The notes below the pieces were generated by a model, which was not told where the DNA came from, did no database searches, and saw only the letters and a list, made by a program, of their open reading frames with translations. The translations under genes and the position numbers were made by a program. A stretch of DNA of 64,000 nucleotides, taken from contig JAPSFT010000023.1 of assembly GCA_035063765.1 (NCBI GenBank), positions 1-64,000 on the forward strand. The letters are read 5' to 3'. Of this stretch, positions 51,109 through 55,957 are shown in pieces (position 1 is the stretch's first letter; each line of letters begins with the position of its first letter). The DNA comes from Deltaproteobacteria bacterium (GTDB taxonomy: Bacteria > Myxococcota_A > UBA9160 > PR03).

Positions 51109-51735
51109 TCAGGGCTCGATGCGGACGGGCGTGCCCGGCGGTGCGAGCCGTTCGAGCCGCTCGACGTCGCCGTCGCTGAGCGCGATGCAGCCCTCCGTCC
51201 AGTCGAGATCGCCCTCTCCCCGCCAGCGTTTCCCCTCGCCGTGGAACCCGAGGTGCCCGCCGAGGGCGGTCGTCTGGGGTGGTAGCCGGCCGGCGCGGTG
51301 GGCGGCGACGATGGCGTCGCGCTCGGCGCGGTCGATCCGGGCCTCGGCGAGCGCGCGCTCGGCGTCGGCGGGCGCGGGGTAGTCGATCGGGAGGAAGCGG
51401 TGGAAGCGGCTCGGGCGCGCCGGGCCGGCGATGCGGTACTCGCCCTCGGGCATGCGCTGGTCGCCCTTCGCGCGCTTCGGGCCCGGTGCGCGCGCGAGGG
51501 CCACGGGCAGGCGCAGCTCGCCCCCGCCCGCGCAGGCCGCGACGAGCACGCGCGCCGCCTTGCTCACGACGATGCGTTCGATGCGCTCGCAGGGGAGCGG
51601 GATGGGTGCCCGGGCCTCGGGCGCCGGCGGGGCGGGCGGTGGCGCGGGGGCCGGCCGCGCGCAGGCGCCGGTCCAGGCGGCCGCGCCCGCGGCCAGGGCG
51701 AGCGCCATCCGACGCCAGGGTCGCGCGCGAAGCAT
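51109..51735 (-). CDS. YkuD-domain L,D-transpeptidase, YafK-like
   Basis: This 208-residue protein has an N-terminal signal or lipoprotein-type segment (WTGAC, Cys at about 25) and a YkuD catalytic domain. KRAKGDQRMPEGEYRIAG leads to HLGFHG and the active-site DWTEGCIALSD, where the Cys is the nucleophile. This short form resembles YafK/DpaA-type enzymes, which in E. coli release Lpp from peptidoglycan, but assignment within the family is tentative. It is divergent from a second L,D-transpeptidase gene just 26 bp away, and TAGCCT lies 8 nt before ATG 51735. Confidence 0.8.
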   Translation of the reverse strand: MLRARPWRRMALALAAGAAAWTGACARPAPAPPPAPPAPEARAPIPLPCERIERIVVSKAARVLVAACAGGGELRLPVALARAPGPKRAKGDQRMPEGEYRIAGPARPSRFHRFLPIDYPAPADAERALAEARIDRAERDAIVAAHRAGRLPPQTTALGGHLGFHGEGKRWRGEGDLDWTEGCIALSDGDVERLERLAPPGTPVRIEP

Positions 51736-51761
51736 GGGAGCGGAGGCTATACGATCCCGCG
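51736..51761. promoter_or_regulatory. 26-bp divergent region with two abutting leaderless promoters
   Basis: The 26 bp between the two transpeptidase starts hold TAGCCT on the minus strand (51744-51749, 8 nt before ATG 51735) and TACGAT on the plus strand (51750-51755, 6 nt before ATG 51762). The hexamers touch end to end. Each -35 must then lie inside the opposite gene. Confidence 0.5.
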
Positions 51762-52640
51762 ATGTCGCGGCCCGTGCTCGCGCTGCTCCTGCCCTGCACG
51801 CTGGCGCTGTGCGCGCCGCTGCCGCCCGCGCCACGCCCCGATCTCGCGAAGATCCCCCCGCTCGTGGGCGCGCCGAGCAGCGACCTCGTCGAGCCGGGCG
51901 ACACGCTCCTCGACGTGGCCTACCGCCACCGGCTCGGCTTCGACCGCGTGGCGCGCCTCAACCCGGAGGTCCACCACTGGATCCCGGAGCCCGGCACCGT
52001 CGTGCAGCTCCCGACCGAGCACGTGCTGCCCGACGCGCCGCACGAGGGGCTCGTCGTGAACGTCCCGGAGATGCAGCTCTACGACTACACGGCCGGGCCG
52101 GAGCCGGAGGTCTTCGCGATCGCGATCGGCGACCAGATGGACCCCTCGCTCGTGGGCGCGTTCCGGATCGGGCGCAAGCGCGAGCACCCCACCTGGACCG
52201 TGCCCGCCTCGATCCGCGCCGAGAAGCCCGAGCTGCCGGCCGTGGTGCCGCCGGGCCCCGAGAACCCCCTCGGCGACCACTGGATGACGATCGGGAGCAC
52301 GAGCTACGGGATCCACGGCACGAACAACCCGTGGTCGATCGGCCGCGAGGCCACCCACGGCTGCATCCGGCTCTACAACGACGAGGTCGCGCGCCTGTTC
52401 GCGCGCACCCGGGAGCGCACCCCCCTGCGGCTCGTCTACCAGACCGTGAAGATCGGCCAGCGCGACGGCACGATCTACGTGGAGGCGCACCCCGACCTCT
52501 ACGGCCGCGAGCCCGACGCGCTGGCGAGCGCGTACCAGCGCCTCCATGCGCTCGGTCTCGCCGACTCCGTCGATCCGCTGCGCGTGCGCCGGGCGGTCGA
52601 GGAGGCGCGCGGGATCCCGGTCGCCGTGGGACGCCTGTAG
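51762..52640 (+). CDS. LysM plus YkuD L,D-transpeptidase, ErfK/YbiS/YcfS-like
   Basis: This 292-residue protein has a signal peptide (about 1-22), a LysM-type segment (DTLLDVAYRHRLGFDRVARLNP, about 46-68) and a YkuD domain with IHGTNNPWSIGREATHGCIRLYND, where the Cys is the nucleophile. This layout matches E. coli LdtA/B/C, which attach Lpp to peptidoglycan. The long C-terminal helical tail is also like that group. A small Lpp-like lipoprotein gene sits 18 bp downstream, convergent. Confidence 0.9.
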   Translation: MSRPVLALLLPCTLALCAPLPPAPRPDLAKIPPLVGAPSSDLVEPGDTLLDVAYRHRLGFDRVARLNPEVHHWIPEPGTVVQLPTEHVLPDAPHEGLVVNVPEMQLYDYTAGPEPEVFAIAIGDQMDPSLVGAFRIGRKREHPTWTVPASIRAEKPELPAVVPPGPENPLGDHWMTIGSTSYGIHGTNNPWSIGREATHGCIRLYNDEVARLFARTRERTPLRLVYQTVKIGQRDGTIYVEAHPDLYGREPDALASAYQRLHALGLADSVDPLRVRRAVEEARGIPVAVGRL

Positions 52641-52658
52641 GCGGCCCCTCCCCCGACC

Positions 52659-52922
52659 CTACTTCGAGACGCCCTTGCGGAAGATCGCCTCGGAGGTGCG
52701 GGCGGCGTCGTCGGCACGGTCGGCGGCGCGCTCGGCCGCGGCCTGGGCGGCCTCGGCGCCGCTGACGGCGCGCTCGGCCGTCGCGCTCACCTCGTCGAGG
52801 CGCTGCTCGAGCGTGCTCACGCGTTGCTCGAGGTCCCGGACGCTGCCGCGCGTCGCGCAGCCCCCGAGCAGCGCGAGTGCCACGACGGCGCCGAGCGCCA
52901 CGCGGACGGTCGATCGGTCCAT
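52659..52922 (-). CDS. Lpp/OprI-like alanine-zipper lipoprotein with C-terminal lysine
   Basis: This 87-residue protein has a lipoprotein signal (VALALLGGC, Cys22), then a single heptad-rich helix (VRDLEQRVSTLEQRLDEV, then an Ala-rich AEAAQAAAERAADRADDAAR stretch) and ends IFRKGVSK. The layout and the terminal Lys match Lpp and OprI, whose last Lys is joined to peptidoglycan by L,D-transpeptidases. GGAGGAGG precedes ATG 52922. The neighbouring YbiS-like enzyme makes a tether role likely. Lpp is mostly described in Gammaproteobacteria. Confidence 0.75.
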   Translation of the reverse strand: MDRSTVRVALGAVVALALLGGCATRGSVRDLEQRVSTLEQRLDEVSATAERAVSGAEAAQAAAERAADRADDAARTSEAIFRKGVSK

Positions 52923-52949: not shown

Positions 52950-53276
52950 TCAGTTGTCGAAGCCGGGCAGCTCGCCGGGGGTCGCGGGCGACTCGATCAC
53001 GCCGAGCGACGCGCCACCGCGGCCGCCGCCGCAGGTGAAGGTGTCGCACGAGAAGCGGTCGAAGGCGGGCGGGCCCGGCGCGTAGAGGACGCCCGGCGGA
53101 GCCGGCGCAGCCACGTCGTTCGGCGTGAAGCGGTCCGCGACCGCCGGCAGCGCCGGGCCGGCGCTCACCGCGGGGGGCTCCGGCGTCCAGGCAGGCACCT
53201 CGATCTCGTCCGCACGGGCGCTCGTCGCGATCGCGAACGCCACCACGATGCCGGCGATCCAGCTCGTCTTCCGCAT
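52950..53276 (-). CDS. Small secreted protein, unknown
   Basis: This 108-residue protein has a signal peptide (about 1-22, ending SARA). The mature part is Pro/Ala-rich with a short CDTFTCGGGRGG motif near residue 78. I do not recognise a family. It lies 34 bp downstream of the TPR/beta-barrel gene and 27 bp upstream of the Lpp-like gene on the same strand, so it probably belongs to their operon. GGAGAG precedes ATG 53276. Confidence 0.6.
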   Translation of the reverse strand: MRKTSWIAGIVVAFAIATSARADEIEVPAWTPEPPAVSAGPALPAVADRFTPNDVAAPAPPGVLYAPGPPAFDRFSCDTFTCGGGRGGASLGVIESPATPGELPGFDN

Positions 53277-53310
53277 GTCCAGCTCTCCTTCTCCCGACCA
53301 GCCCGCAACC

Positions 53311-55065
53311 CTAGAGGTCGGGCTGGTAGTACAAGGTCAGGTAGCCGCCCACGACGTGGCGGTCGTAGTCGAAGACCTCGACGTTCGAGTCGTTGCGGGT
53401 GTACTCGTAGCGGAGCGACCCGATCAGCCAGTTCGTGATCGGCCGCTCCACGATCACGTCCGCCTGCCAGACGTTCTCCCGCTTGTCGCCATTGCGCAGG
53501 CTGTACTCCACGCCGTTCACGAGGTCGTTCGGGTTCGGGTACGTGGAGGGATGGTCGTAGGGCCGATAGGTGTAGCTGCCCTGGAGGTCGAGCACGACCT
53601 GCCACGGGAGCAGCGTCCGCGTGCCGAGCACGAACTCGTGGCCCTGGAAGTCGTACTCCTCGCCCTCGGCGTCGTAGTGGTGCCAGCGGTAGCCGGCCGA
53701 GAACTGGGTGCGCAGCTCCTCGACCGGCACCATGTGGTCGAAGCCCACGATCGACCAGAAGCCGTCGCGGTTGCGCTCTTCGCTCTCGTCGAGGCCGAAG
53801 GGGCCGCAGGGCTCGTTCGGGTCGGGGCAGGCGCTGCCCGGGCCGCCCGCCGGCGGGGGGCTCCCGTCCGGCACGTCGTCGCTGTCGAAGCGGTAGTCGT
53901 CCCAGCTCAGCTCGGCGAACAGCCGCGAGTTGCCCCAGCGCCCGCCCCAGTCGTGGAAGAGCGCCGGCGTCAGCGAGTGCTCGAGCAGGTAGCCGTCGTA
54001 GCCGACCCAGGCGTAGCTGAAGTCGTACTGGAGCCGCGCGAGGGTGGCCTCGGCGAGCCGGCGGTCGACCCAGGCGGTGGCCGACGGATACTGGGTGTCG
54101 AAGTCGGTCTGCTCGAAGTGCGCCGAGCCGTAGAAGGCGCCCAGGATCCCGACCGCCCAGTCGCGGTTGCGGAACACCTCGGTCCCGACCTGCGCGGTCC
54201 ACACGCCGCGGACGTCGCCTTCGTCGGAGATCTCGTCGGGGACCGACACGTTGTCACCGCGCAGGAGGACGTTGCTGTCGTACTCGAAGCCGCCCGAGAG
54301 GACGACCCAGGGACCCTGGCGCTCGCCCTCGACCGGCGCGCGACCGAGCGGGCGCTCGGCCTGCTGGAGGCCCTGGAGGTCGCGGCGGTCGGGCAGGAGG
54401 GCGCGGCCCTCCGAGCCGGCGAGGGCGCGCTCGGCGGCAGCCGCCCAGCTCGTGCCGGGCGCCTCGCGCTGCACGCGCTCGAGCGCCTCGCGGGCGCGCT
54501 CGCGCTCCTTCGCGCGCAGCCACGCCACCCCGGCGTAGTAGGACGCGACGGGCTCGACCCCGACCGGATCGCGCCCGCGCGCGCGCTCGAGGGCCTCGGC
54601 CGCGGCCACTGGCTCCTCGGCGCGCTCGAGCCGGATCAGGCCGTCGTAGAGGTCCACCTCGGCGCTGCCCGGCGAGCGCACGCGGGCGTCGTCGAGCGCG
54701 AGCTCGGCGCCGTCGACGTCGCCCGCGTGGAAGCGCGCGACCGCGAGGTGCAGGTCGACGTCGGGTGTGTCGGGATCGAGGCGCTTCGCATCGGCGAAGG
54801 CCTGCGCGGCCGCCTCCCACTCCTGGCGCTGCATCCGGCACAGGCCGATCAGGTTCGCGACCCCGGCGTCGTCGGGCAGCCCGGCGCGCGCCTCGTCGAG
54901 CAGCGGGAGCGCCTCGTCGCAGTGGCCGGCGCTCGCCTGCTCGCGGGCGCGATCGCGCAGCGCAGCGGGGTCCTCGGCGGCCCCGGCGGCGCCGTTGGCG
55001 AGCCCGAGGAGCACTCCGAGCGTGATCGACGCGCCCGCGCCGGCTGCGCGGCGGCCAAAGCTCAT
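53311..55065 (-). CDS. TPR-repeat plus outer-membrane beta-barrel protein
   Basis: This 584-residue protein has a signal peptide (about 10-30), an N-terminal TPR region (about 32-220 with repeats such as AAAQAFADAKRLDPDTPD and EALERARGRDP) and a C-terminal beta-barrel (about 240-584) that alternates aromatic and polar residues and ends LYYQPDL. This is the layout of surface lipoprotein assembly modifiers (Slam) and polysaccharide-export porins, but the subfamily is unclear. Its ATG overlaps the stop of the PEP-CTERM gene (ATGA), so the two are co-translated. Confidence 0.75.
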   Translation of the reverse strand: MSFGRRAAGAGASITLGVLLGLANGAAGAAEDPAALRDRAREQASAGHCDEALPLLDEARAGLPDDAGVANLIGLCRMQRQEWEAAAQAFADAKRLDPDTPDVDLHLAVARFHAGDVDGAELALDDARVRSPGSAEVDLYDGLIRLERAEEPVAAAEALERARGRDPVGVEPVASYYAGVAWLRAKERERAREALERVQREAPGTSWAAAAERALAGSEGRALLPDRRDLQGLQQAERPLGRAPVEGERQGPWVVLSGGFEYDSNVLLRGDNVSVPDEISDEGDVRGVWTAQVGTEVFRNRDWAVGILGAFYGSAHFEQTDFDTQYPSATAWVDRRLAEATLARLQYDFSYAWVGYDGYLLEHSLTPALFHDWGGRWGNSRLFAELSWDDYRFDSDDVPDGSPPPAGGPGSACPDPNEPCGPFGLDESEERNRDGFWSIVGFDHMVPVEELRTQFSAGYRWHHYDAEGEEYDFQGHEFVLGTRTLLPWQVVLDLQGSYTYRPYDHPSTYPNPNDLVNGVEYSLRNGDKRENVWQADVIVERPITNWLIGSLRYEYTRNDSNVEVFDYDRHVVGGYLTLYYQPDL

Positions 55066-55802
55066 CGCGCGCGCCCGGCGTACCCGATTCCGGCGAGGCC
55101 CGTCAGGAGGAGCACGAGCGTCCCCGGCTCCGGCACCACCTGCGCCACGAGCTTGAGCGGCGGCATCACCACCTGGTTGTTCACGATCGGCATCACCCCC
55201 GAGCTCACGATATAGCGGACCGTGAACTGCCGCGACTCACCCGGATCGAGGACGCCGAGATCGACGGCGCCGAAGAAGTAGTCGCTTCCCCCCGCCGTGT
55301 ACTTCACGATCTCGAGCAGGTCGCCGTCGAGCCCCACCTCGAGGTCCGGGTAGCCGCCCGGGTTGATGGCCCCGGGGTAGGGCGCGAGGTTCACCGCGCT
55401 GAACAGCAGGAGCACCCGCCCGTAGGTCTCGCCGCTCGTGTTGGTGGCCGTCCAGAGCGAGTCGGCGATGAACGGGCTCGCGCCGGTCGGCTCACTGCCC
55501 CGCGCCTGCGGGAACTGGTGCACGGTCTGGAGCGCCTGCGAGATCGTGATGTCGTAGCTGGAGCTGTTCCTGCAGACGCCGACCTTCTGGAACGTGCCGG
55601 CCCCGGCGCACAGCGTCTGGTCCAGCGGGGTGGTCGCGAAGTCGAAGGCCGGGCCGGTGTTCGTGAAGCCCGTGTTCGAACCCCCGGCCGGGAAGCGCAG
55701 GTACTCGGTGTCACCGATGCCGAGCGCCCCGGCCGGCGCGGCCAGGGCCAGCGTAAAGAGCACCGGCAGCACGGTCCGGATCGGGCGGGTCGGGAAATCC
55801 AT
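55062..55802 (-). CDS. PEP-CTERM-type surface protein
   Basis: This 246-residue protein has a signal peptide (about 10-32), a body with the segments DTEYLRFPAGGSN, SSYDITISQAL and GGYPDLEVGLDGDLLEIV, and the C-terminal VPEPGTLVLLLTGLAGIGYAGRAR, a clear PEP-CTERM sorting signal. ATG 55802 has GGAGAA upstream. It is the first gene of the likely operon with the TPR/beta-barrel protein, the small secreted protein and the Lpp-like lipoprotein. No exosortase lies in the window. Confidence 0.85.
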   Translation of the reverse strand: MDFPTRPIRTVLPVLFTLALAAPAGALGIGDTEYLRFPAGGSNTGFTNTGPAFDFATTPLDQTLCAGAGTFQKVGVCRNSSSYDITISQALQTVHQFPQARGSEPTGASPFIADSLWTATNTSGETYGRVLLLFSAVNLAPYPGAINPGGYPDLEVGLDGDLLEIVKYTAGGSDYFFGAVDLGVLDPGESRQFTVRYIVSSGVMPIVNNQVVMPPLKLVAQVVPEPGTLVLLLTGLAGIGYAGRAR

Positions 55803-55957
55803 GGGCTTCTCCTGCGGATGCGGGTCCTCGCCGTGGAAGTGGCCTTCCGCGCGCAGGCGTGTCACGGGCGCGGGCCTGCCGGAGAAATCGGGCCCCGAGG
55901 GGCGGCAACTGCCCGGCGCGCACCCGATCGGGCGCTTGCGCGAAGCCGGCGCTGGGC

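Follow-up and report, generated by a model that had tools for sequence, protein, structure and literature searches.

The covalent tether that joins the outer membrane to peptidoglycan through Lpp is usually treated as a speciality of Escherichia coli and its relatives. Does a bacterium from another phylum encode such a tether together with its own enzymes? The question is raised by a locus in a 64,000-nucleotide stretch of a myxococcotal genome (assembly GCA_035063765.1, contig JAPSFT010000023.1; the whole stretch is called the window here), in which a small Lpp-like lipoprotein gene lies next to the genes of two YkuD-domain enzymes. In a survey based on the model PF04728, Lpp was found in a subset of the Gammaproteobacteria, corresponding to ~3% of genomes, and a different function was suggested for DpaA in bacteria that do not have Lpp (PMC8263019). 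The restriction has been repeated (PMC10260701, PMC12274547, PMC11784454). From 2021 to 2025, Lpp was described as confined to a gammaproteobacterial subset or to close cousins of E. coli, and the role of DpaA-like enzymes in bacteria said to lack Lpp was left open (PMC8263019, PMC11784454, PMC12274547).

The reading preferred here is that the locus constitutes a compact, self-contained covalent outer-membrane tether module (probability roughly 0.7). Judged by sequence, the roles of writer (the enzyme that attaches the lipoprotein) and substrate are well supported, and the role of eraser (the enzyme that would release it) is probable but less well supported. The components are of known kinds; what is new is their linkage and its spread across phyla. 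The linked module was described in no paper found in a literature search that covered subscription journals thinly.

Layout of the locus

All three genes were found again in the window, with the same coordinates as in the original prediction (Table 1), and together they span 1.8 kb. The 18 bp reported between the LysM-YkuD gene and the lipoprotein gene proved to be a stop-to-stop gap between convergent genes. The short YkuD gene is indeed divergent from the LysM-YkuD gene, with 26 bp between the two starts. Since the writer and lipoprotein genes are convergent, they do not form one operon; with the writer also divergent from the DpaA-like gene, a single operon for the trio could be ruled out in the window.

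Table 1. Features of the putative tether locus in the window
Feature	Coordinates	Strand	Length	Family models
Short YkuD protein, DpaA-like, putative eraser (P0002)	51109..51735	-	208 aa	PF03734
Intergenic gap, DpaA-like start to writer start (divergent)	51736..51761		26 bp	
LysM-YkuD L,D-transpeptidase, LdtA/B/C/E type, putative writer (P0001)	51762..52640	+	292 aa	PF03734
Intergenic gap, writer stop to lipoprotein stop (convergent)	52641..52658		18 bp	
Lpp/OprI-type alanine-zipper lipoprotein, putative tether	52659..52922	-	87 aa	NF040598, PF11839

The source genome (4.4 Mb in 57 contigs, 96% complete) contains one alanine-zipper lipoprotein over the PF11839 cut-off and three PF03734 (YkuD) genes, of which two belong to the trio and the third is YcbB-like. 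The encounter of these genes within one locus is therefore not a matter of chance. The nearest named relatives are Myxococcota or 'Deltaproteobacteria' MAGs.

Upstream of the lipoprotein gene and on the same strand (52950-55865), the window encodes a 108-aa hypothetical protein, a TPR protein whose C-terminus may be an outer-membrane barrel, and a PEP-CTERM protein, separated by short gaps. Their conservation next to the trio is limited to the sister genome (L019).

The putative tether lipoprotein

The lipoprotein agrees with its original description (87 residues, a lipobox, a terminal Lys). The lipobox LLGGC ends at Cys22 (codon 52857-52859), which leaves a mature chain of 66 residues, and the C-terminus reads FRKGVSK with Lys87 as its last residue (codon 52662-52664). 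The protein scores 49.4 bits against NF040598 (Lpp/OprI alanine-zipper, cut-off 43) and 34.7 bits against PF11839 (cut-off 23.1). Its score against PF04728 (Lipoprotein leucine-zipper) is 20.5 bits, under the cut-off of 29.1. By these models it is classed as an Lpp/OprI alanine-zipper lipoprotein and not as a PF04728 Lpp proper. PF04728, on which the published 'gammaproteobacteria only' claim was built, misses this family: at E 0.01 it recognizes only 3 of 57 members, whereas NF040598 recognizes all 57.

The identity to E. coli Lpp is ~29%, and both proteins share the lipid Cys, the C-terminal Lys and a zipper helix in the same a/d heptad register when counted from the Cys. In the window protein, 79% of the a/d positions are hydrophobic or Ala, compared with 23% elsewhere, a bias matched by 0 of 2000 shuffles. 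The mature chain is longer than that of E. coli Lpp (66 vs 58 residues). When the lone sequence (P0003) was searched against solved structures, only coiled coils at chance level and Lpp were returned. The residue at position +2 is Ala, which is consistent with an outer-membrane location under the E. coli Lol rule.

In an alignment of 57 homologues from several phyla (two or three tailed Nitrospirota members being left out), two columns alone are invariant, those of the lipid Cys and of the terminal Lys, the latter counted by column, as members ending in EKGR and KKH carry the Lys there but not as last residue. The chain ends exactly in Lys in 51 of the 56 homologues with a scored lipobox, and so do four further homologues with PLGC- or PIGC/PVGC-type lipobox sites. 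In the exceptions (TKSGR, SKGGR, EKGR, KKH), the Lys lies one to three residues inside or is followed by an extension. The original prediction had asked whether close homologues keep the terminal Lys, and had regarded its loss beside persisting linkage as evidence against a tether. The Lys is largely kept; the combination of linkage and a non-terminal Lys was encountered only in these few endings and in the tailed Nitrospirota members. The TKSGR and SKGGR ends belong to two Myxococcota genomes (G131 and G161), each of which has a second, co-directional module with a Lys-terminal lipoprotein.

Three further features of the family were observed. G131 (L150, L166) and G161 (L151, L152) hold both layouts, and it is the lipoprotein of the convergent copy that has the Lys inside. 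At the same gene position in three Nitrospirota loci (L123, L132, L134), a His/Lys-rich tail follows the SLEK motif of the lipoprotein. In Thermodesulfobacteriota (L097, L102, L109, L118), a second Cys closely follows the lipid Cys (GCGTC) in three of four members, and all four are Lys-terminal.

The mature length equals 3 mod 7 in 33 of 56 homologues (59, 66, 73, 80, 87, 94, 101 or 115 residues), a count that is inflated by near relatives. Gains and losses of entire heptads would be expected to yield such lengths. The mature lengths of 59-101 residues, which most homologues take in heptad steps, would, should the linkage be functional, provide a natural series for the question of periplasm width.

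The LysM-YkuD enzyme as putative writer

The catalytic Cys201 of the LysM-YkuD enzyme (codon 52362-52364) lies in THGCIR, which fits the transpeptidase motif (S/T)XGChR, and the protein scores 74.6 bits against PF03734 (cut-off 23.4). Its LysM part reaches 13.2 bits against PF01476, below the threshold of 20.9; the N-terminal region aligns with LdtE and with solved ErfK/YbiS-type chains. Hence, of the original assignment to a LysM-YkuD enzyme of the ErfK/YbiS/YcfS type, the family was upheld as LdtA/B/C/E type, and the LysM part stays below the Pfam threshold. The enzyme is 34-36% identical to E. coli LdtC, LdtE and LdtB. Its best NCBIfam match is NF047955 (LdtE), with 138.8 bits aligned over the whole protein but short of the equivalog cut-off of 480 bits; it is a homologue of LdtE by this score and is not classed as LdtE.

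According to the motif rule, SXGChR marks transpeptidases and SXGChA hydrolases (PMC8263019, PMC10434034). The former is shared by the writer and the LysM-YkuD enzymes LdtA, LdtB and LdtC of E. coli. A functional parallel comes from Pseudomonas aeruginosa, a gammaproteobacterium and not a myxococcotal organism, where LdtPae2 is the sole enzyme that anchors the Lpp-homologous lipoprotein OprI (PMC10434034). LdtPae2 belongs to the lineage of the window's writer.

The writer could instead be an LdtE-like enzyme that makes 3-3 cross-links, the lipoprotein being a free outer-membrane coiled-coil protein and not a substrate. Besides the LdtE match, this would be in line with the common lineage of anchoring and cross-linking enzymes (PMC10434034) and with the situation in E. 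coli K-12 (NC_000913.3 1757421-1758725; L064 2422-3726). There, lpp and ldtE are convergent and 63 bp apart, much like the lipoprotein-writer pair of the window, yet LdtE makes 3-3 cross-links (PMC12729407). Adjacency alone thus does not assign the reaction. The LdtE match, in turn, carries no functional weight because the four E. coli enzymes LdtA, LdtB, LdtC and LdtE are united in a single later clade (support 100), located within the proteobacterial part of the writer tree. Cross-linking could also be done by the YcbB-like enzyme of the genome, and the invariant terminal Lys column argues for a substrate.

The short YkuD protein as putative eraser

In the short YkuD protein (56.5 bits against PF03734), the catalytic Cys183 (codon 51187-51189) lies in TEGCIA. 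The Arg found two residues after the Cys in transpeptidases is thus absent, and the motif fits the SXGChA pattern that is also present in the YkuD domain of E. coli DpaA; its homologues have A or G at the Arg position, where DpaA/YafK amidases are marked by Ala or Asn. The loss of this Arg was tied to Lpp hydrolysis by Winkle et al. (PMC8263019) and likewise in PMC10434034, where LdtPae3 of P. aeruginosa is the proposed DpaA-type eraser. It is not unique to DpaA, since the Arg is missing from L,D-carboxypeptidases too, and these likewise have the equivalent of Lys83 (PMC8263019, PMC10653827). Of two residues of the DpaA substrate pocket, the equivalent of Lys83 is present in the window protein (GPK), and the position of Tyr109 is taken by Phe. 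In several gammaproteobacterial DpaA-like members, the Lys83 equivalent is absent.

The original prediction had noted a resemblance to YafK/DpaA. For the single sequence it is weak: the score against the DpaA equivalog NF040599 is 13.4 bits, far under the 365 bits required, and a search of solved structures returned no match. With the family profile the resemblance was stronger: the best match among solved structures was DpaA (8ikr, E 1.1e-11), ahead of Bd1075 (8e-8). On this evidence the protein is called DpaA-like and is not classed as DpaA.

A different role is conceivable for this protein: as a Csd6/Pgp2/Bd1075-type L,D-carboxypeptidase, it would trim tetrapeptides while the lipoprotein and writer would still form a tether. 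Such a role is rather unlikely, though it deserves consideration, as these enzymes share both the missing Arg and the Lys83 equivalent. Moreover, a Foldseek comparison of the predicted P0002 model ranked YkuD, Bd1075, Pgp2 and DpaA about equally (TM ~0.46) and so did not separate DpaA from the L,D-carboxypeptidases. It is the family profile that favours DpaA, together with the recurrence of the DpaA-like gene next to the other two genes in several phyla and layouts (see below).

In P0002 and in most of eight homologues inspected, a Cys follows a hydrophobic segment and precedes a Pro/Ala-rich stretch; several of these lipoboxes depart from the consensus. The arrangement suggests a membrane-anchored enzyme, probably a lipoprotein with a Pro/Ala-rich linker. 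The corresponding Cys is absent from E. coli DpaA.

Conservation of the linkage in Myxococcota

A first survey covered 61 relatives; the lipoprotein is encoded in 12 of these genomes, in each case with a writer adjoining it. The survey was extended to 334 genomes of the phylum that are at least 85% complete, with limits of E <= 1e-57 for the writer and E <= 4e-12 for the lipoprotein, which were chosen after a gap in the hit list had been seen. The genomes that have the writer and those that have the lipoprotein are the same 19 of the 334, distributed over several families (hypergeometric 2e-31, kinship not corrected for). This identity of the two sets fits an enzyme and its substrate; a cross-linking enzyme beside an unrelated coiled-coil lipoprotein appears improbable.

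The original prediction had proposed to check whether the Lpp-like gene stays next to ybiS-like genes. This is largely the case: the two are adjacent in 18 of the 19 carriers, the adjacent writer in G056 being a fragment at a contig end, and in the remaining genome (G190) they lie on separate contigs. The convergent layout was seen at 13 survey loci, with gaps of 2-531 bp. A co-directional order (Lpp > DpaA-like > Ldt) was seen in G053, G022, G031, G037 and G277 and in the second copies of G161 and G131, the Ldt of the latter being cut by the contig end. Most of the Myxococcota loci also contain the DpaA-like gene; in G005 it lies on another contig. Weaker matches of the lipoprotein profile (E 1e-7 to 1e-3) in ~135 other Myxococcota genomes were not counted, being probably generic Ala-rich helices; many of them lie in open frames of >200 aa.

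Such adjacency might also be synteny retained by descent in a part of the genome that rearranges slowly, with no functional coupling of the genes. The congeneric sister genome indeed shares the flanking genes as well. When other genera of the family and order are compared, however, only the trio stays together, and across phyla it does so in several layouts, which makes inherited synteny very hard to credit. The earlier proposal of a three-gene tether module therefore stands as regards the linkage; the block is not an operon here and is not special to the lineage.

Linkage in other phyla and evolution

Beyond this survey, a contig search was seeded with the window's writer and the best 80 named writer loci were analysed; being picked by similarity to this writer, they are not an even sample of bacteria. 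A member of the lipoprotein family lies within 2.5 kb of the writer in 61 of these 80 loci and no match lies further away; reversed decoys of these loci gave five lipoprotein matches. In about a quarter of the 80 loci, no lipoprotein neighbour was detected. The DpaA-like gene is also present in 32 of them. By the names of the records, many of which are MAGs, the carriers belong to Myxococcota, Nitrospirota, Thermodesulfobacteriota (Thermodesulfatator, Desulfuromonadaceae, Geobacter), Rhodospirillales and other Alphaproteobacteria, and Gammaproteobacteria such as Halomonas, Thioalkalivibrio and Chromatiaceae. The layouts are convergent or co-directional, with the DpaA-like gene on either side.

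In contrast to the convergent myxococcotal locus of the window, the Geobacter-type loci are co-directional (Ldt > Lpp > DpaA-like). Geobacter Lpp was reported to be naturally 99 residues or more in length (PMC8824477, 2022), a report that concerned the length only and not the module. Judged by the loci found here, it belongs to the same alanine-zipper lipoprotein family. Cultivated carriers such as Geobacter make the module directly testable.

In a writer tree, the window protein falls inside a Myxococcota clade (98). The tree was built quickly from a similarity-chosen sample and has many weak branches. The position of the E. coli enzymes in it, together with the lpp-ldtE neighbourhood, would agree with linkage of an Ldt as the older condition and with LdtA, LdtB and LdtC as unlinked duplicates. 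The E. coli genes for the anchoring enzymes and for DpaA are not linked to lpp, whereas the window holds all three genes together. A broader scenario may be put forward tentatively, at somewhat less than even odds: a covalent Lpp-type tether linked to its own writer, and often a dedicated eraser, would be old and widespread in Myxococcota, Nitrospirota, Thermodesulfobacteriota and Proteobacteria, and the dispersed set of E. coli would be derived. LdtA, B, C and E would then have arisen by duplication, with LdtE left beside lpp and DpaA located elsewhere. Many DpaA-like proteins whose hosts are at present believed to lack Lpp would have such unrecognized lipoproteins as substrates. Should the linkage be functional, covalent tethering of the outer membrane would be far more common than the literature has it, and the DpaA question would gain a named candidate substrate in each genome.

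Proposed mechanism

The proposed mechanism starts from features that were observed directly, namely the gene identities, the motifs, the conserved linkage, the conserved Cys and Lys and the heptad pattern. The lipoprotein would receive its lipid at Cys22 and be sorted to the outer membrane, with the mature chain forming an Lpp-like zipper helix there. The writer would join the side-chain amine of the terminal Lys to the diaminopimelate of wall peptides, so that the outer membrane is fixed to the peptidoglycan and the length of the helix determines the distance between them. The adjacent DpaA-like protein, probably membrane-anchored and without the transpeptidase Arg, most likely cleaves the Lys-diaminopimelate bond, which would render the tether reversible. 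For the outer-membrane location, the covalent attachment, the pairing of enzyme and substrate and the hydrolase activity, we infer from the enzymology of E. coli and P. aeruginosa.

YkuD enzymes also fix the outer membrane to diaminopimelate in Brucella, Agrobacterium and Coxiella. There, a beta-barrel is joined via its N-terminal residue, in contrast to the lipoprotein and C-terminal Lys proposed here. As for delivery, LolA was found twice in the source genome. LolB (PF03550), to whose producers Lpp has been linked (PMC11784454), was not detected in that genome; LolB is patchy in general.

With the writer assigned to anchoring, the 3-3 cross-links could be supplied by the YcbB-like enzyme of the source genome. 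Adjoining its gene lies that of a 225-aa protein with the motif SFGCPAL (G000:C7; L001, 2202-2879, minus strand), which may represent a further murein L,D-transpeptidase-type domain outside the PF03734 count.
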